Origin: Planctomyces sp. SH-PL14
GTDB taxonomy: Bacteria; Planctomycetota; Planctomycetia; Planctomycetales; Planctomycetaceae
DNA: 64,000 bases
NCBI RefSeq assembly: GCF_001610835.1
Contig: NZ_CP011270.1
Span: forward strand, 6,404,001 to 6,468,000
Direction of reading: 5' to 3'
Shown here: positions 15,973-28,678 of the stretch, one piece after another
Layout: every line of letters begins with the position of its first letter
Numbering within the stretch: position 1 is the first letter of the stretch
Notes under the pieces: generated by a model
Told to the model about the DNA's origin: nothing
The model's database searches: none
The model's input: only the letters and a program-made list of their open reading frames with translations
Program-made: the position numbers and the translations under genes

Positions 15973-17274
15973 TCAGTCGTTCCGCAGCTTGAGGTTGACC
16001 TCGGTCAGCTTGGCCCGGATTTCGTTGAGCGACGTCACGCCGAAGTTCTTGGCGGAGAGGAGCTCGTCGGGCGTCCGGGAGGTCAGCTCGCCGATCGTCG
16101 TGATGCCGAGGCGGGTCATACACTTGCGGCTGCGGACCGACAGGTTGAGGTCGGCAACCGGCTGGCCGAGGATCGCCTGCTCTTCCGGGGAGAGGTCGCG
16201 GTAGTCGACGCTCGCTTCCCGCGGCTTCTCGTGCAGGTTCATTCCGATCTTGAGGCCGTGCAGGCCCATCAGCTCGCGGACTTCCTTCAGCGACGTCTCG
16301 CCGAAGTTCTTCCCGGCGAGGAGCTCCTGTTCGGAGATCATCGTCAGGTCGCCGAGGCTCTGGATATTCATCCCCTGGAGGCAGTTGCGGCTGCGGACCG
16401 ACAGTTCGAAGTCGGTGACCGGGCGGGCCAGGAGCTGCTCGAGCTTCTGCTGCTGCTTGAGGGTCTCGTCGTCGACGAACTGGCCGCTCGTCGCTTCGAT
16501 GTCCTTGAGGTACAGGGTCGCCCGCTCGTTGTTCGGGTCGTACTTGAGGACCCGCTCAAAGCAGTACTTGGCGGCCGGGAAGTTGTCCTTGTCCTCGTAC
16601 AGCAGCCCCAGGTTGAGGAGCGCGTTGGAGAAGAACGGCGGCTTGGAGAGGCACCGCTCGTAGAGGCGGATCGCGTCGTCGTCGTTCCCCTGCCGGGAGG
16701 CCTGGACCGCCAGCGAGAAGAGAGCCCGCTGGTGGTGCGGGTCCATGTCGACCGCCCGCTCGAAGTACTCGATAGCGCCGTAGGTGTCGCCGCGGTCGGA
16801 CATGACGCAGCCCATCTGGTACGAATATTCGGCCAGACGAGCCCCTTCCGCTCCCGTGCTGCGGATCAGCTCTTCGGACTTGTCGAGCTGGCCGAGCCGC
16901 CGCAGTTCGCCGGCGCGGCGGAGGATGCACTCGATCTTGTTTTCGCCGAGCTTGGCCGCTTCGTCGAATTCGCGGGCGGCGTCTTCATGCTTGCCGAGGC
17001 TGGAGTACGCCTGTCCGAGGTAGTACCGGCCGAGTCCGTCCTTGCAGCCGGAGAGGGTCTCGATCGCCCGCTGCGGGTTCCCGAGGAGGAAGAAGCCGAT
17101 CCCGGCCCGCACGCGGAGGGTCGGGTTGGCGCTCGCTTCCGTGTTGACCGTTTCGACGGCCCGCCGGAATTCCCCCGCTCCGACGCCCGAGGCGGCGCTC
17201 AGCATCCGCCGGACGTCGTCTTTTCCGAACGAGGAGGAATCGCGCAGGGTCGAGAGAAAATCGAATTGAGCCAT
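15973..17274 (-). CDS. TPR protein with two RNA polymerase alpha C-terminal domains
   Basis: 433 aa. Residues 50-260 hold about six TPR units (for example GAIEYFERAVDMDPHH and AIRLYERCLSKPPF). Two tandem alpha-CTD folds follow, at about 281-347 (FELSVRSRNCL...NFGETSLKEV) and 368-431 (LNLSVRSRKCM...NFGVTSLNEI). Compared with E. coli RpoA, the first keeps the positions of R265, N268, C269, G296, S299 and E302 used for UP-element DNA contact (here R294, N297, C298, G325, S328, E331) but not K298. The second has Lys for N268. There is no polymerase assembly domain, so this is not RpoA. A DNA-binding or transcription-linked scaffold role is inferred. It is monocistronic, with its own terminator. 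Confidence 0.88.
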   Translation of the reverse strand: MAQFDFLSTLRDSSSFGKDDVRRMLSAASGVGAGEFRRAVETVNTEASANPTLRVRAGIGFFLLGNPQRAIETLSGCKDGLGRYYLGQAYSSLGKHEDAAREFDEAAKLGENKIECILRRAGELRRLGQLDKSEELIRSTGAEGARLAEYSYQMGCVMSDRGDTYGAIEYFERAVDMDPHHQRALFSLAVQASRQGNDDDAIRLYERCLSKPPFFSNALLNLGLLYEDKDNFPAAKYCFERVLKYDPNNERATLYLKDIEATSGQFVDDETLKQQQKLEQLLARPVTDFELSVRSRNCLQGMNIQSLGDLTMISEQELLAGKNFGETSLKEVRELMGLHGLKIGMNLHEKPREASVDYRDLSPEEQAILGQPVADLNLSVRSRKCMTRLGITTIGELTSRTPDELLSAKNFGVTSLNEIRAKLTEVNLKLRND

Positions 17275-17624
17275 GCCTGAGTTACGATCCGGTCGATGGA
17301 AACCCCGGCTCCGCGCGTACCAAATTCGGCGGAGACGAAACCGCCGATGATACCGGGTCCCTCTGGAGTTGCAACCGGCCCCGTCCGCCGGATGGGCCCC
17401 TCTCCCGCTCCCGGTCCCGCGGCGACGGTCCCGCGCGTCGTCTACTGACCGGGGACCGCCACGCGCCGACGCGTTTGCGACACTCCCGCCGTCTCTCGCT
17501 TTAGTTAGGCCACGAAAGATCGCCCAGAACGGCTTTGGCCCCCGGGTTGGAGACGGCCCAGACCTCCGTCAATCCCTGGTTTGTGTGACTTGTGCGAAAA
17601 TCCGGGTTTCCCCGGGAGCGTCGT

Positions 17625-17652
17625 TGACTTCATCGTTAGAACCGGTAGGCTC
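17625..17652 (+). promoter_or_regulatory. candidate sigma-70 type promoter of the first Tyr-rich gene
   Basis: TTGACT (17625-17630), 16 bp, then TAGGCT (17647-17652), within the 517-bp gap before the gene. The second Tyr-rich gene has a similarly spaced pair (TTGACA-16-TACCTT), which is the main reason to list it. The -10 match is weak and the leader would be about 130 nt. Confidence 0.35.
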
Positions 17653-17791: not shown

Positions 17792-18214
17792 ATGGGCGCT
17801 TTGAAGTCGGGCTTAATGGCATTGGTGGTGGGGCTGACGCTCTTTGGCGCGACGCCGAAGAAGGCTGAGGCATACAGCTTCGGTTCGTATGCTTACGATA
17901 TCGCGTACGATACCTATGTTTTTGCTCTGTACGGTATTTACGACGACATCAGCTACTACGGCGACTACACGGACAACGCCTTCTACGCCTACTATTACGG
18001 CTACTACGGCTATGCGTATGCCGAATACGCCTACTTCTACGACTCCGATTACTCCTACGACGCTTACTATCTGCTGTATTACTCGGCGCTGTATTCGGAG
18101 TACACCTATTACTATGAGGTGAGCAGCTTCTACTTCCTGATCTCCTCGCTTTATGGCTATGAGGGGTCCTATTTCTCGCTCTACGCCTACTACTACGGCT
18201 TCTATGGGTACTGA
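17792..18214 (+). CDS. secreted tyrosine-rich protein A1 (37% Tyr), unknown function
   Basis: 140 aa. A clear signal peptide (MGALKSGLMALVVGLTLFG...KKAEA) precedes a mature chain of about 113 residues with 42 Tyr, many in AYYYGYYGYA-like runs, plus Gly, Ala, Ser, Asp and Phe. There are no Cys, Lys or Arg after the signal peptide, so the mature part is strongly acidic. It starts with GAGGAGGGGG well placed before ATG 17792. It is homologous to A2 (20182-20595), sharing YYGYYG, AEYAY and YYSALY blocks and the C-terminal GY/GI. Such a composition suits a matrix, sheath or dityrosine-crosslinked polymer, which is inference only. It is followed by a terminator and then partner gene B1. Confidence 0.85.
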   Translation: MGALKSGLMALVVGLTLFGATPKKAEAYSFGSYAYDIAYDTYVFALYGIYDDISYYGDYTDNAFYAYYYGYYGYAYAEYAYFYDSDYSYDAYYLLYYSALYSEYTYYYEVSSFYFLISSLYGYEGSYFSLYAYYYGFYGY

Positions 18215-18256
18215 TCGGCCGTCGGGCAGAGCATTTTCCTGATGAATGGCAGAGCG

Positions 18257-18292
18257 AAGCCTGGATTGAACACCGTTCGATCCAGGCTTTTT
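18257..18292 (+). terminator. intrinsic terminator/attenuator between A1 and B1
   Basis: The 10-bp stem AAGCCTGGAT / ATCCAGGCTT (18257-18266 and 18280-18289), extended by GAAC/GTTC, leads straight into a T5 run ending at 18292. It is 42 bp after the A1 stop and 16 bp before the B1 ATG, so B1 must rely on readthrough or a promoter overlapping this site. Confidence 0.85.
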
Positions 18293-18308
18293 CCGCGAGG
18301 TACGATCG

Positions 18309-19673
18309 ATGTTCGGATCCCTCCACTGGATGCTGATTCTCGTGGCGCTGGCGGGGCCCGCTCAGGCCCCCCGTCCCGGACGCCCGCTCCCTGGCGGCGG
18401 CCCTCCGCCGGGCGGCCGGCCGCTTCCCGCCGGCCGTACGGCTCCCGCGGCTCCTTCGGCCTCTTGGATTCCGCTCTCGACGGCGGAGCAGTTCGCGATG
18501 CTGCTGAAGCTCAAAGAGGTTGGGAAAGAGATCGGAGTCGAGTCGCCGCCGCAGGAAATGCTGGCCGACCTGCGACAGCTGGTCCGGGGAGGCGGCTCGG
18601 CCGAGGTAAGCGACTCCACCAAAGGGGCCGAAGGGCTTCCGATCGAAAAAAGGGCCGAAGGGCCCCCGACGGAGAAAGGGGCGGAAGGCCCCCCGACCGA
18701 TCCGGCCGAATATCTGGCGATCGTGGAAAAGCACTGCGGCCGCGCCCCGGCGAAGCGGCTGCGGGAACTCCGTTTCCAGGCGCTCGGGCTGCGGTTTGCC
18801 GCCAAGGCCGATCCGGCACTGGCCAGGGCCCTCAGCCTCAGTCCGTCGCAGACGGCCGGGCTCGGCGAGCTGCCGATTGCGGGGCTCCCCGAGCAGCTCG
18901 GCGGGAGTTCGGGAGAGGCGCTGCGGGCGGTCGAGCTCCGGTTTCTCACGGAGTCCCAGCGCGGCAAGTGGCAGGAGGCCTGCGGAACGCCCTCGACCGT
19001 GCAGCTCCCGCCGCTGATCTCGGTGGCCGGATTCGGGGGCAAGGTCCGCGTGCCGCAGCTTCTGGCCGGCGGGGGCTTCGCCCGGGTTCTCGGAGATCCG
19101 GCCGTTCAGAAAGATCTGTCGATCACGGAGCGTCAGCAGGGGAAGCTGGACGGCCTGATCACCGCTCTCAAGGAGGGGGACGCCGCGGCGCTCGAAGGGG
19201 TTCCGGAACGGGTGGAGTATGACGAACTGGCCAGCCTGGCCGAGAAGCGTCGCGATGCGGCCCGGAAGACGATCCAGGACACCCTCGGCACCGAGGTCGA
19301 GAAGCGTGTCTCCCAGATTGCGCGGCAGCAGGCGGGCCTCCTGCCTTCGCTGCGGTCTGATCCGGAAATCGAGCGGCTTCTGGCCGTGACGAACGAGCAG
19401 CACGACAAGCTGGCGTTTCTGCTGCAGAGCGGCGCGCTGCCGACTCCGCCGCGAGTCGTGGGCCGCCCGACCCCGGAGATGTTCGGCCAGTTTCGGGAGT
19501 ATCGCCGGATCGTCGACGAGGCGATCTTTGACCAGGTCCTCACCGCCGAGCAGCGGGACGTCTGGAAGGAGCTGACGGGCGAGCCGCTCGATGTCGACCT
19601 GAAGCTGCTCCCCTTCCTTCCCGCCCCTCCGCCGCGGTCGCGAACCTCCGAAGCGAACCGCGGCCGCGAGTGA
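18309..19673 (+). CDS. exported LTxxQ-repeat protein B1, partner of A1
   Basis: 454 aa. Signal peptide 1-20, then a Pro/Gly-rich linker (21-52) and a short AEGPPTEK-type triplication (106-131). The rest is helical with repeated motifs DP-x5-L-x-[LIV]-[TS]-x-x-Q at 168-181, 263-276 and 351-364, and VLTAEQRDVW / FLTESQRGKW at 409-419 and 212-221. The [LIV]TxxQ signature recalls the Spy/CpxP family of periplasmic chaperones, though this protein is much longer and the link is only by motif. It is clearly homologous to B2 (20788-22011) over almost its full length, for example the shared GLLPSLRSDPEI. A chaperone or assembly factor for A1 is a testable idea. Confidence 0.8.
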   Translation: MFGSLHWMLILVALAGPAQAPRPGRPLPGGGPPPGGRPLPAGRTAPAAPSASWIPLSTAEQFAMLLKLKEVGKEIGVESPPQEMLADLRQLVRGGGSAEVSDSTKGAEGLPIEKRAEGPPTEKGAEGPPTDPAEYLAIVEKHCGRAPAKRLRELRFQALGLRFAAKADPALARALSLSPSQTAGLGELPIAGLPEQLGGSSGEALRAVELRFLTESQRGKWQEACGTPSTVQLPPLISVAGFGGKVRVPQLLAGGGFARVLGDPAVQKDLSITERQQGKLDGLITALKEGDAAALEGVPERVEYDELASLAEKRRDAARKTIQDTLGTEVEKRVSQIARQQAGLLPSLRSDPEIERLLAVTNEQHDKLAFLLQSGALPTPPRVVGRPTPEMFGQFREYRRIVDEAIFDQVLTAEQRDVWKELTGEPLDVDLKLLPFLPAPPPRSRTSEANRGRE

Positions 19674-20181
19674 CCGCGAGCGGGTGAAGAGGCCAGTGGG
19701 CCGAGTCGCTGCGGAGATCGAGCGGGGACTTCCTGTCGGCCGCCGTGATGCCGTTCCTGCCCCGGATATTCCCTCCGCGCAGGCGGACCGGCAGCTCGCG
19801 AGAAGCCCTCGACGAAGTCGGCGGTCCCCCGGGGGCGAGGGGAATGCTGCACCGCTTTGGCTGGCCGACGGAATGCAACCGCAATCCGAGATCCCGGTTC
19901 GACAGGTCCGCTCTTCCTGAGCGCCGGCAGGGACCAGACCGGTTGTGTCTTCCCTGCAGAGAGATCCGTCCACCCCGATCCTGCCGATCTGTTTGGCAAA
20001 ATGGGTGGTATGGGTCATTCTTGTTGACAGGGGTCAACGGCTCGATACCTTCGACACTGCCACTCTCGGCTTGGAGCGATTGCGGCGGTTACTCCGAACG
20101 TGTCCATCATCCGGTCTGGGCAGTCGCGGGCTCGCTGTGATGAAATTCCTGTTGCCGCCGTGACAAGACGAGGGGGTTCGA
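19674..20181. other. 508-bp intergenic region before A2
   Basis: No gene recognised. It holds the candidate A2 promoter at 20024-20051 and the GAGGGGG ribosome site just before the A2 ATG. No member of the R1-R7 repeats is present. Confidence 0.4.
20024..20051 (+). promoter_or_regulatory. candidate sigma-70 type promoter of the second Tyr-rich gene
   Basis: A perfect TTGACA (20024-20029), a 16-bp spacer and TACCTT (20046-20051). A short inverted repeat TTGAC...GTCAA overlaps the -35 (20025-20037) and could be an operator. Spacing and layout resemble the candidate at A1. Confidence 0.45.
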
Positions 20182-20595
20182 ATGTTCACTGTCAAGAAAA
20201 CTCTGCTGGCCCTGCTGGTCGGCATCTCGCTGTTCGCTTCGGCGCCGAGCCAGGCGAAGGCGGCCGGGCTCGACTACTACGCGTACTCGCTGGCCTATGA
20301 CGGTCTGGTGTACGCGGGCGGGGCCTACCAGCAGTCGCCGTCGCCCACGACCTACGAGTACTACGCGTACATCTACGGCTACTACGGCCTGGTCTACACG
20401 GAGTACGCCTACAACGCCAAGGTCTACAGCTACCAGTCCGACGCCTCGACGTTCTGCTACTACTCGGCCCTCTTCGGGAACTACACGTACCAGTACGAAG
20501 GCCGCAGCTACCTCTGGTTCGTGTCGGCGATCTTCGAAACGTACGCCTCGGACGTTGCCGAGCTCTCCTACTACTACAGCCCTTACGGCATCTGA
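20182..20595 (+). CDS. secreted tyrosine-rich protein A2 (26% Tyr), paralogue of A1
   Basis: 137 aa. The signal peptide MFTVKKTLLALLVGISLFAS...AKA has the same plan as A1. The mature chain of about 110 residues has 29 Tyr. It aligns with A1 through YIYGYYG, TEYAY, CYYSALF and the YYYSPYGI end. It differs by one Cys, a few Lys/Arg and an SPSPTT stretch, so the two have diverged well beyond a recent copy. The ribosome site GACGAGGGGGTT mirrors that of A1. The composition could favour stacked or crosslinked assemblies at the cell surface (inference). Followed by a terminator, then B2. Confidence 0.85.
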   Translation: MFTVKKTLLALLVGISLFASAPSQAKAAGLDYYAYSLAYDGLVYAGGAYQQSPSPTTYEYYAYIYGYYGLVYTEYAYNAKVYSYQSDASTFCYYSALFGNYTYQYEGRSYLWFVSAIFETYASDVAELSYYYSPYGI

Positions 20596-20620
20596 AACGC
20601 GTCAGAGCCTAGCTCAACTG

Positions 20621-20654
20621 GCGGGGTCCCGAGCTGCTCGGGGTCCCGCTTTTT
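20621..20654 (+). terminator. intrinsic terminator/attenuator between A2 and B2
   Basis: A 13-bp stem (20621-20633 with 20637-20649, GCGGGGTCCCGAG type, two G-U pairs) with a CTG loop and a T5 tract at 20650-20654. It occupies the same place in the module as the hairpin after A1. Confidence 0.88.
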
Positions 20655-20787
20655 CGTTGAAGTCGGCGAGTGCCGCTTGTGTGGTGTCCGGACGGGTCGC
20701 AAACTCGCTCCAGCCGATGGCGCGACCCGGGCCGATTCCGACCGGCGTCCCGTCCTCCCGGCGGTCTCTCGTTGAGGAGCCTCTCCC

Positions 20788-22011
20788 GTGAAGCGTCTTC
20801 CCGCGATCTCCGCGTTGGTCCTGCTGCTGACGCTCCTGGCTGGCGGCGCCACGGGCCAGGAGCCCCGGCCGCCGGCGACTCCGGTCATCGAGTGGGGGCT
20901 GATCTCGCCCCCCGAGCAGTACCTCCGTCTCCTGGCCAACCCCCGGGTGCTGGAGGACCTGAAAGTCGCCGAAGTTCCCGAATCGCTGTCGAAGGAACTC
21001 CACGCGAAGGCCCTCGCGGCGTCGCAGTCGGAGACTCAGCCCGGGAAGTCCGTCCCCCAGCTCCGGGAGTGCGCGGCGCTCGTCGAAGAGGCTCTCGGGA
21101 AGGAGGCGGCCCACCGGGTGGAGCAGGTCCGCTACCAGTGCGTCGGCCTGCGATACGCCGTCCAGGAAGATCCGGGGCTGGCGAGCGACCTGAAACTGAC
21201 CGAAACGCAGCAGGAACGGGTCGCGGCCCTGCCGATCGGCGGTCTCCCCCCGCGCCTGGGAGGGGCCGACTTCGCCTCGTTGCGGACCGCGGAAGCGGAG
21301 ATCCTCGACGCCGGCCAGAAGCGGCGCTGGGAGGCGCTGTGCGGATCGCTCCTGGAGGGGCGACTGCCGCTCATGATGGCGATCAAGGGGGGCGGGAATG
21401 TCGGGAAGGTCAAGATTCCGGTCGTGCTCAGCGGCGGGACCTATGGCCGTCTGCTCGTCGACCCGGCGATCCAGCAGGAGCTCAAGCTGACGCCCCCTCA
21501 GGTTGAAAAGGTCCGCGAGGTGATCCCCCGGCTTCAGCAGGGGGACGCCGACGTCATCAAGGAGAACCCGCCGGAAGTCGAACCCCTCCGGCTCCGGGAG
21601 ATTGCGACCGACCGCCGGGACGCCGTGCGGAAGCTCATCAAGGAGGAGTTCTCGCCCAAGATCGAAACGCGGCTGACGCAGCTGGTCCGCCAGCACCAGG
21701 GGCTGCTTCCCAGCCTCCGCTCCGATCCGGAGATCGCGGAGATGCTGAAGTTCACCGAGGAGCAGAACCGGAAGATCGGAATCCTGATGCAGAGCGGCGT
21801 GCTCCCGCGCCCGCCCCGTCCGACCGGGACTCCGCAGCAGGTCGAAGCGGCCTTCAACGAGTTTCGGCGGCTCCTCGACGAAGTGATCGTGGCTGAGGTC
21901 CTCACCGAGGCCCAGCAGAAGCAGTGGACCGAGATGTCCGGAGAGCCGTACGAGGTCTCGATCCTCATCGGCCCCTTCCTCCCGCTGGTCCCGCGGGGTC
22001 CCGCCCCCTGA
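20788..22011 (+). CDS. exported LTxxQ-repeat protein B2, partner of A2
   Basis: 407 aa from GTG 20788, with GAGGAG 12 bases upstream. Signal peptide MKRLPAISALVLLLTLLAGG ends near TGQE. The repeated motifs match B1: DLKLTETQ, ELKLTPPQ and MLKFTEEQ, plus EVLTEAQQKQW and EILDAGQKRRW. The Pro-rich and AEGPPTEK insertions of B1 are absent. Strong shared blocks are QGLLPSLRSDPEI, the LLQSG/LMQSG segment and the final GEP. Motifs recall Spy/CpxP-type chaperones. Direct evidence of function is lacking. Confidence 0.8.
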   Translation: MKRLPAISALVLLLTLLAGGATGQEPRPPATPVIEWGLISPPEQYLRLLANPRVLEDLKVAEVPESLSKELHAKALAASQSETQPGKSVPQLRECAALVEEALGKEAAHRVEQVRYQCVGLRYAVQEDPGLASDLKLTETQQERVAALPIGGLPPRLGGADFASLRTAEAEILDAGQKRRWEALCGSLLEGRLPLMMAIKGGGNVGKVKIPVVLSGGTYGRLLVDPAIQQELKLTPPQVEKVREVIPRLQQGDADVIKENPPEVEPLRLREIATDRRDAVRKLIKEEFSPKIETRLTQLVRQHQGLLPSLRSDPEIAEMLKFTEEQNRKIGILMQSGVLPRPPRPTGTPQQVEAAFNEFRRLLDEVIVAEVLTEAQQKQWTEMSGEPYEVSILIGPFLPLVPRGPAP

Positions 22012-25632: not shown

Positions 25633-28257
25633 TCAGTAGTTCAGCCGCAGCCCGAGACTCCCCATCGTGGCTGCCCGATCCCCCTCGAAGCCCCGCGCGT
25701 ACTGGCCGCTTCCGTACAGCGACGCGTGCTGCGTGACCTGAACCGTCACGTCTCCGCCGATCTCGGCCCACGCCCCTCCCATGTCCGATGCGAAGCTCAG
25801 CGGATTGCTGCCGTCCAGGGCCGTCAGAGTGGCCACATTGTCGCCGAGAAACTCTCCCCAGCTGTCCGCGGTCAGGCCCACGGTCAGCAGTCGCGGCCCC
25901 CCGGCCCGCGTCTCCCGCAAGGCAATCGTCCGGGCTCCCCGCACTCCCAGACGACCGCGGAACGAATCATTGTCGTTGAACGAGGTGATCGACGCCGCAT
26001 CCCGCTGCGATTGGAAGTCGAAGGTCTGGTACACCATCTGGGCCTGCGGCTGGATCAGGAACGTTTCGCCGACCCGGATCGGATATCCCGCTTCCAGCGA
26101 CGTCGCCAGACCCGCTCCCTTCGGACGAATCCCGCTTCCGTCGACGGTCGTCGCCGTTCCCTCGTACCAGGTTCCCTGGACGACCGCGTCCAGGTATCCG
26201 TCGCTCGGTCCATACCAGGTCCAGTAACCTCCGACTGACGCCGCATCGAGAGCGAGTCGCGCCACCTGACCACCCGCATCCGCCCGTCCCTGGCCGCCTG
26301 CCACATACACGCCGGCGTAGTGATGGATGCCCCCCGCGACCTCGTCGTGGAAGAGGTCGATCCCCCCCTGTCCCGCGGCGAGCTGATAGTCGAACGGCGT
26401 TCCTCCGCCGGTCTGTTCGCCTCCCAGTCCGATGGTCCGGCCCCAGCCGCCGTTGAAGTAGGGCTCGTCGAGGAGATCGGCCCGGTCGCGAAGTTGTTCC
26501 TGCGCCCCCAGGCGCCGGTGGAGCGTCCCGAGCAGGCGAGCGCCGTACTCCTGGGCCAGCGAGGGGACAATCGGATAGGCCGCAGCCGCGGGACGCAAGC
26601 CGCTTCGCAGGAACCAGTCGTTCGGATCGCCGGAGCCCCCCAGAAAGAGCTGGTAGTTATACGCTCCGGCGTTCACCGGTCCCGCCAGCACGAAGGCATT
26701 GGCCGCCGAGACCCCGCCGACGTCGACGATCCGGATCCCGTCGCCCGTGGTCGGAGCCCCCAGCCCGCCGTTGTTCACCACCTGAACGAAGGACTGACCG
26801 CTGACGTTCCCGTTGACGACCAGCAGATCGGCCGGGGAGCTGCTGTTCCCCAGCACCGATTCGATCCGGAGCACGCCGCCGGTCCCTGTGTAGTTCCCGT
26901 CGATGGTGAACGTGCCGATCCCGGCATTGCCCGGATCCACGATCCCGCCATTGAAGACGTCGCCAACAATCGTGCCGGTCCCCGCCAGCGTGCCTCCGGC
27001 TTCAACGGTCGTATCGGACGTCGTCGAGCCGGTGATGAGGAGCGTCCCCTCCTGGATCGTTGTGACGCCGGTGTACGTGTTGCTTCCTGCCAGGGCGAGG
27101 GTGCCGGTCCCCACCTTCGTGAGCGAGCCCCCCGTTCCCCCACCTGCACCCCCATCACGGATGACACCGCTGAACTGCGTACTGGCGTCATTGCCGCCAA
27201 TCTGCAGGGTCTTGCTCCCCAGGGAGATCGTCCCTTCCCCCGCAATCGATCCCAGAGTGGTGCCGGCCGAGTTCAGCTGGCTGATGTCGACGTCGGCGGT
27301 CGCTGCGTTGACGACCGCGGCATTCCCACCAGTCGAGTTCCCCCGGAAAACGATCAGGCTGTTGTTCAGAAGGGTGGCATCGCCCGCCGTCGAGTTGCCA
27401 TTGAAGTCCACTCCAAACCCGTTGAGGGTCAGCGTGGCGTTACCCGCGGTGGCGTTTCCGTAAAAGTTCAGAGTCGAAGCGAAGCCGGTCGTAATCGAAG
27501 CGTTGCCGGCCGTCGCGTTGCCAAAGAACTCCGCTCGTCCGACGGGGCCCATCGTCAGGGTCGCGTTCCCCGCCGTAGCGTTGTCTTCAAACAGGAGAAT
27601 GCTGAGGCCCGAAACAGAAATGGCGGCGTTTCCCGCCGTGGAATTGCCCAGGAACGCAACAGCGCCTGCGTCGAAGTCAATCGTGGCGTTGGCCGCCGTC
27701 GCCGTGTCCCGAAACTCGACTCTGTCACTCCCGAAGAGATCAGTGATCACGGCGTTCCCCGCCGAGGACGCATCCTGAAAGATGAGGGCTCCATTGACGT
27801 CGATCTGGGCGTTTGCCGCCGTGGAGGCGTTGGCAAAGGTCACGTCGCCATTGAGGAGCAACGCATCACCGGCACTGGCCGAGTTGAGAAAGGTCACCGG
27901 TCCGCCAAACACAAGGTTCAGCGTAGGACGATTGGCCGAGTTGTTGACAATCCCGGCCCCGGAAAAAGTGAGTGCCGTGGCGACATTGAAATCGTACGCC
28001 GGCGCGCCGGCGTTGAACGTCATCCCCCCGATGACCGTGTCGGCCGAGAAGAACAGAGACGTGACCGTCGAGCTGTCGAAGATCGCCGTCGCACCCGCTC
28101 CGCTGGGCGCCAGGCCTCCGACCCAGTTCGCATCGTCATTCCAGTTGTTCGTGCCCGGGTTGGCCAGCCATTGCTGAGCCATGGCCGGCCGGCACCAAGC
28201 GCCGAATAGCCCGAGCGCCATCGCGATGGCCAACCCGCAAGTTGAGCGACGAAACAT
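25633..28257 (-). CDS. type V autotransporter with ten TAGNA-type passenger repeats
   Basis: 874 aa. Signal peptide to about residue 27 (GAWCRPAMAQ). The passenger starts with a NNWNDDANW motif common in exported beta-helix proteins. Ten repeats of 19-22 residues centred on (S/T)AGNA lie at about 128, 147, 166, 188, 208, 229, 250, 271, 290 and 310. A passenger-associated repeat GTGTLALAGSNTYTGVTTI follows. The last ~280 residues form an autotransporter beta-barrel ending in aromatic Tyr (LGLRLNY). The passenger is probably a surface-exposed beta-solenoid. Adhesion is plausible but unproven. GGGAGG before ATG 28257 decides the start. Confidence 0.88.
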   Translation of the reverse strand: MFRRSTCGLAIAMALGLFGAWCRPAMAQQWLANPGTNNWNDDANWVGGLAPSGAGATAIFDSSTVTSLFFSADTVIGGMTFNAGAPAYDFNVATALTFSGAGIVNNSANRPTLNLVFGGPVTFLNSASAGDALLLNGDVTFANASTAANAQIDVNGALIFQDASSAGNAVITDLFGSDRVEFRDTATAANATIDFDAGAVAFLGNSTAGNAAISVSGLSILLFEDNATAGNATLTMGPVGRAEFFGNATAGNASITTGFASTLNFYGNATAGNATLTLNGFGVDFNGNSTAGDATLLNNSLIVFRGNSTGGNAAVVNAATADVDISQLNSAGTTLGSIAGEGTISLGSKTLQIGGNDASTQFSGVIRDGGAGGGTGGSLTKVGTGTLALAGSNTYTGVTTIQEGTLLITGSTTSDTTVEAGGTLAGTGTIVGDVFNGGIVDPGNAGIGTFTIDGNYTGTGGVLRIESVLGNSSSPADLLVVNGNVSGQSFVQVVNNGGLGAPTTGDGIRIVDVGGVSAANAFVLAGPVNAGAYNYQLFLGGSGDPNDWFLRSGLRPAAAAYPIVPSLAQEYGARLLGTLHRRLGAQEQLRDRADLLDEPYFNGGWGRTIGLGGEQTGGGTPFDYQLAAGQGGIDLFHDEVAGGIHHYAGVYVAGGQGRADAGGQVARLALDAASVGGYWTWYGPSDGYLDAVVQGTWYEGTATTVDGSGIRPKGAGLATSLEAGYPIRVGETFLIQPQAQMVYQTFDFQSQRDAASITSFNDNDSFRGRLGVRGARTIALRETRAGGPRLLTVGLTADSWGEFLGDNVATLTALDGSNPLSFASDMGGAWAEIGGDVTVQVTQHASLYGSGQYARGFEGDRAATMGSLGLRLNY

Positions 28258-28678
28258 AGACGGCCTCCCAGCCTGCTTGTTCAAGAGTTCGCTCGATGTC
28301 GCTTCGGCCCCATTTTCCGCGGAAGAGGCATCCTCTGCCTCGCCCGAAAGCACACCCTGCCCGAGTTCCTTACGGCCGCGTTATTGTTTCGGACGATCCG
28401 CCCGTCTCGTGGAGCCGCCCCGGCTCGGATGTCCCGCTTCGTAGTCCTCGCGTTTCCTTCTGGAAGGATTGTGCCGATTAGGCAACTCGGGAAGCGGAAC
28501 CGGCCGCACGCCAACGTCTCAAGGAATTCCGGCCAGGAGGCGTCCTCTCACGAATGTCGGTCCTTGCGGACCCGGTCGCGGCCCCCGTATCGTCTGAACG
28601 CAGCCACTCCGAAGGACCAAGCCGGTCCGCCCCGGACGTTCTGGCATGGGCCCTCAATTGAGCATGGAAGGAAAGTCG
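28258..28678. other. 421-bp divergent intergenic region
   Basis: Must contain the promoters of the autotransporter gene (minus) and the secreted unknown (plus). No clear -35/-10 pair, operator-like palindrome or repeat copy was recognised. Confidence 0.35.

Follow-up and report, generated by a model that had tools for sequence, protein, structure and literature searches.

A small tyrosine-rich secreted protein followed by an exported protein with LTxxQ motifs raises the question of whether the second gene encodes a dedicated chaperone for the product of the first. Such a pair, designated A and B, occurs twice in a 64,000-nucleotide stretch of planctomycete DNA (the window), which is part of a genome consisting of one 8.44-Mb contig. 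Spy-type chaperones, to which LTxxQ proteins are related, are generalists of envelope stress. If the proposed function is true, a Spy copy dedicated to a single client would illustrate how a general holdase turns client-specific, and the pair could point to a protein that is part of planctomycete surface structures. We therefore analyzed the arrangement of the genes, the two proteins and the alternatives to a chaperone function.

Organization and copies of the A-B unit

The genes follow each other in the order A1, B1, A2, B2, all on the + strand, as described in the initial annotation. A1 (17792–18214, 140 aa) encodes a Tyr-rich secreted protein with a predicted Sec signal peptide reaching to residue 27, and A2 (20182–20595, 137 aa) encodes a homologue of A1, A3 and A4. 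B1 (18309–19673, 454 aa) and B2 (20788–22011, 407 aa, GTG start) encode predicted exported proteins, each with two Spy-like units of ~170 aa. The genome contains four A genes and three B genes. The third pair, A3-B3 (genome 5664657–5662772, - strand), shows the same A-then-B order and lies 0.76 Mb from the window pairs on the opposite strand, while the lone A4 (genome 291137–291547) has no B beside it.

B is located directly downstream of A on the same strand at three of the four A genes, and all three members of the double-unit B subfamily have an A gene directly upstream. Adjacency can be counted in the host genome only, because A and full-length close relatives of B are confined to it; a count across planctomycetes, as the initial annotation had envisaged, thus yields no A-B pair in any other species. 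Within the host genome the homologues are mostly neighbors, and the order recurs at an unrelated locus, although one A gene stands without B.

Comparison of the loci by BLAST limited the homology to A and B. As the flanks are unrelated, the duplicated unit is exactly A plus B and no larger block. Protein identity is 40–43% among A1, A2 and A3 (43% between A1 and A2) and 38–44% among the three B proteins (B2-B3 44%, B1-B2 38–40% over the full length), so that the unit has been held together down to about 40% identity. A3 and A4 are 81% identical; their similarity extends over the A frame and some 215 bp upstream of it and ends at the A stop codon. The description of the locus as tandemly duplicated holds for the two window pairs, but the pair is dispersed in the genome as well, and A1B1 and A2B2 are no recent duplicates, since B2 resembles B3 (44%) more than B1 (38%). 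The linkage may represent one ancient pairing that was copied as a unit. A and B form a real, compact, lineage-specific two-gene module.

Protein A is a tyrosine-rich orphan under purifying selection

The Tyr contents of 37% and 26% initially noted for A1 and A2 were confirmed for the mature proteins. Mature A1 contains 37.2% Tyr and 13 acidic residues with neither Lys nor Arg, and mature A2 contains 26.4% Tyr, nine acidic residues and two Lys plus Arg. Among ORFs of at least 80 aa, the next Tyr-richest in the window besides these two reaches 4.7%. A protein with about one third Tyr residues and, in mature A1, without Lys or Arg would be an unusual natural material, and A would escape tryptic proteomics.

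All four diverged A copies have intact frames, signal peptides and ribosome-binding sites. Between A3 and A4 we determined a dN of 0.10 and a dS of 0.60 (dN/dS 0.16), which indicates that A is a translated gene subject to purifying selection, the lone A4 included. It follows that B need not be present in cis.

HMM searches revealed no homologue of A in 169 other genomes of the host's family or in 391 other genomes of its phylum. Peptide-pattern scans of GTDB r220 contigs and viral collections were likewise negative, as was tblastn against plasmid and phage collections. The host genus is represented in these searches by this one genome, and the A family may therefore be genus-wide. No match above cut-off was obtained in Pfam, NCBIfam, PHROGs or PADLOC; six weak matches in genomes of the host's family (E 0.19–0.94), inspected where an open frame was readable, were signal-peptide look-alikes or unrelated proteins and no Tyr-rich relatives. 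Profiles of A and B gave nothing significant against the sequences of solved structures, and a literature search on Tyr-rich secreted proteins in planctomycetes returned nothing relevant.

The AlphaFold2 model of A2, calculated from a two-row alignment, is of low confidence (pLDDT 44), and the helical prediction for A was accordingly left out as evidence. A periodicity of Tyr peaking at 155 degrees in A2–A4 (P 0.02–0.06) is absent from A1 and was considered unconvincing. Codon usage (CAI 0.57–0.77) neither supports nor excludes strong expression of A. A is best interpreted as a polypeptide that is secreted and has a structural or adhesive role.

Protein B consists of two remote Spy-like units

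B1 and B2 had been described as homologous proteins with repeated LTxxQ-type motifs, and both points hold: the translations of B have signal peptides and contain LTETQ, LTPPQ and LTEAQ among other such motifs. The assignment to the LTxxQ/Spy type is supported at the level of remote homology. B1 scores 15.8 bits against PF07813 (LTXXQ), under the curated Pfam cut-off of 24.3 bits, and B2 gives no match; the relationship emerges through single-unit LTxxQ proteins of planctomycetes (such as G000 6071730, L054, L055, L057). By hhalign, the two halves of B share homology (97.5%, E 5e-12), and both are homologous to these proteins, the second half with 98.9% (E 1.2e-17) and the first with 96.4% (E 1e-9). 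Seven of the eight members of the single-unit alignment match PF07813 (E<=0.001), and a PDB search with the profile of this family retrieves Spy of E. coli (E 4e-5). Given homology by way of the single-unit family together with sub-cut-off Pfam scores, B is best described as a remote doubled Spy relative outside Pfam's membership rule.

To judge from the alignments, B is a tandem duplication of the ~170-aa unit found in the single-unit proteins. It differs from them in lacking Gly-rich stretches and in always being preceded by A, and identity in the profile alignment amounts to 25%. With Spy/CpxP proteins B shares the signal peptide and the LTxxQ-type motifs; in contrast to their one small domain it has two tandem units, and it is genetically tied to one secreted protein. 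Hallmarks of the Spy/CpxP family further include a cradle-shaped helical dimer and chaperone activity independent of ATP. The AlphaFold2 model of B2 (two-row alignment) is helical with low confidence (mean pLDDT 52), and a Foldseek search of the B model against the PDB returned no match at E<=0.001. The B proteins contain two to four His and one to three Cys residues.

Full-length close relatives of B were restricted to the host genome, and a scan of genome contigs returned no further ones. The LTxxQ unit itself is common, being present in 73 of 150 genomes of the host's family, and no Tyr-rich neighbor was seen beside the distant LTxxQ proteins examined in the host and other genomes. In other planctomycetes the unit also occurs in fusions (L057 3096–5714; L056 4079–6115), one with a Ser/Thr kinase, next to which a single-unit LTxxQ protein is encoded, and one with an NHL-repeat protein; a sensing role of the unit is possible. 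Its occurrence without a Tyr-rich neighbor and in fusions shows that the unit is more than a chaperone of A. A literature search on LTxxQ proteins in planctomycetes found nothing relevant. In its N-terminal part (18620–18710), B1 contains repeats that are only about 10 aa long (KGAEGLPIE-KRAEGPPTE-KGAEGPPT) and that B2 and B3 lack.

Transcription signals

Promoter-like sites were identified by pattern matching on the + strand upstream of A1 (TTGACT-N16-TAGGCT, 17624–17651) and A2 (TTGACA-N16-TACCTT, 20024–20051). The common pattern TTGA[AC][ACT]-N16-TANNNT is present at -150 to -168 from the ATG of all four A genes. It has three matches on both strands of the window, two of which are those at A1 and A2. 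As the pattern was chosen after the sequences had been seen, the sites are suggestive and do not amount to a test; a sigma-70 scan of the region does not list them. None of the A-B gaps contains such a site.

The terminators reported between A and B were recovered. A terminator-like hairpin with a U run lies directly 3' of the A1 stop codon (18256–18293, + strand, shuffle z -3.4), and an intrinsic terminator was detected 3' of A2 (20620–20655, + strand) by terminator scan and shuffling (z -2.0), with hairpin energies of -26.9 and -26.4 kcal/mol, respectively, in a 45-nt window. Each of the four A genes has a strong hairpin after its stop codon, the U run being restricted to A1 and A2. B1 starts about 15 nt past the U run of the A1 hairpin. 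The simplest reading is that A has its own transcript and that B is reached by read-through of the A terminator, which would result in less B.

The leader of A2 also contains a 36-nt element, CATC.G.TC.GGC..GTCGCGGGCTC......GATGA (20108–20143, + strand), with an 11-nt invariant core, GTCGCGGGCTC. In a whole-genome search allowing up to three mismatches it was found only at A2, A3 and A4 (the latter two in L010 and L011), each time at the same distance from the start codon (about -75 to -39 relative to the ATG); the backwards control gave no match. The element may serve as a protein site, a small-RNA site or a leader peptide. An Rfam search of the region gave no result.

Is B a dedicated chaperone of A?

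The observed gene order, its repetition, the exact limits of the unit, the homology of B to Spy-like proteins and the composition and selection of A served as the basis for a functional model. The gene pairing, a direct observation, suggests that A is bound and chaperoned by B. We tentatively favor a model, held with somewhat less than even confidence, in which A is a secreted self-associating structural or adhesive protein and B its dedicated periplasmic holdase. A would have a promoter of its own and a short mRNA terminating at the hairpin and, given its signal peptide, would be exported through Sec. It would most likely self-associate into an extracellular or cell-wall layer, an adhesive or a fibre; self-association is proposed on account of 26–37% Tyr, the acidic character and the near absence of Lys and Arg. 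Most B transcripts would arise from read-through past the A terminator, so that B is presumably made in smaller amount. It would be exported as a dedicated periplasmic holdase and, with its two Spy-like units, keep the sticky A soluble until exit or assembly.

In vitro, Spy has been reported to inhibit the assembly of the curli subunit CsgA into amyloid (PMC6123696), which makes a dedicated holdase biochemically plausible; a spy knockout alone left curli production unaffected (PMC6123696). The resemblance to the pairing of CsgA with CsgC or Spy, in which a small periplasmic protein keeps a self-associating secreted subunit soluble, is one of analogy; A is Tyr-rich and is not itself a homologue of curli proteins. 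The host genome in addition has no CsgG (PF03783), for which controls were positive. With the curli-type export pore absent, A would need another way out or would stay in the envelope.

Against a dedicated holdase stand the lone A4, under selection with no B in cis, the Pfam score under cut-off, the occurrence of the LTxxQ unit in other planctomycetes apart from any Tyr-rich neighbor and in fusions, the low confidence of the structural models, the lack of a PDB match for the B model, the absence of CsgG, a CAI (0.57–0.77) that does not point to strong expression of A, and a linkage that may go back to a single ancient pairing.

A more specific version of the holdase model, which we regard as less likely than not, sees A as a new lineage-specific Tyr-rich secreted building material, possibly dityrosine cross-linked, and B as a dedicated double-unit chaperone, the pair having arisen in one planctomycete lineage from the general LTxxQ pool. 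Tyr-rich structural proteins with dityrosine cross-linking are known from spore coats and from insect and mollusc materials. A resembles them in being secreted and very rich in Tyr, although no homology was found, and no cross-linking oxidase was recognized among the neighbors examined.

The wide distribution of the LTxxQ unit could also be taken to mean that A is secreted to serve in the surface or matrix and that B is one of many planctomycete LTxxQ-type envelope proteins, with another role, such as stress or signal sensing or wall binding, which was once placed behind A and then copied along. This would account for the presence of the unit in 73 of 150 family genomes, for the lack of a Tyr-rich neighbor beside those examined, for its fusion to Ser/Thr kinase or NHL domains and for A4 lacking B in cis. 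However, B has stayed behind A at three loci despite about 40% identity and changed surroundings, and the double-unit subfamily is found with A only; we consider such an origin somewhat less probable than a dedicated holdase, if well worth keeping in mind.

It is improbable that A is secreted as a toxin or bacteriocin-like peptide against which the exported B provides immunity or neutralization, the diverged copies representing different specificities. A small secreted protein with a partner, diverged copies, a narrow distribution and a terminator between the genes would fit, but A is acidic and not cationic, A4 stands without a partner, B is a member of a chaperone-related superfamily, and searches of toxin, defence and phage families returned no match. 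We assign similarly little probability to metal or redox handling, with the acidic, Tyr-rich A binding or reducing metal ions or quenching oxidants and B acting as a ZraP/CnrX-like sensor or buffer. A HlyD/RND-type efflux pair is located about 3 kb from A4, and a precedent is offered by ZraP, which the title of a work cited in PMC6737893 describes as a periplasmic chaperone repressing a zinc-responsive two-component system; on the other hand, B contains few His and Cys residues, and no metal genes lie beside the three A-B pairs. That A is no gene and its frame stays open by chance in repetitive DNA of high G+C content, as its low complexity and lack of homologues outside the genome might suggest, has a negligible probability: the four copies have diverged, yet each retains an intact frame, a signal peptide, a ribosome-binding site and the shared promoter-like site, and the dN/dS of A3/A4 likewise argues strongly against it.

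Neighboring genes

The flanks of the module in the window are of housekeeping type, encoding a U32 peptidase, a TPR/RNA polymerase alpha-CTD protein and an M3 peptidase. The TPR protein, beside the module (15973–17274, - strand), contains a pair of RNA polymerase alpha C-terminal-like domains (PF03118, E 5e-41). The window of this planctomycete also encodes a classical autotransporter with PF03797 barrel, PATR and autochaperone domains (25633–28353, - strand). An ORF adjoining A3/B3 (L010 10203–11969, - strand, genome about 5.665 Mb) contains a phage tape-measure domain (PF20155, E 4e-24) and, by eye, a phosphoribosyltransferase/HAD-like tail; it is probably a prophage remnant fused by deletion.
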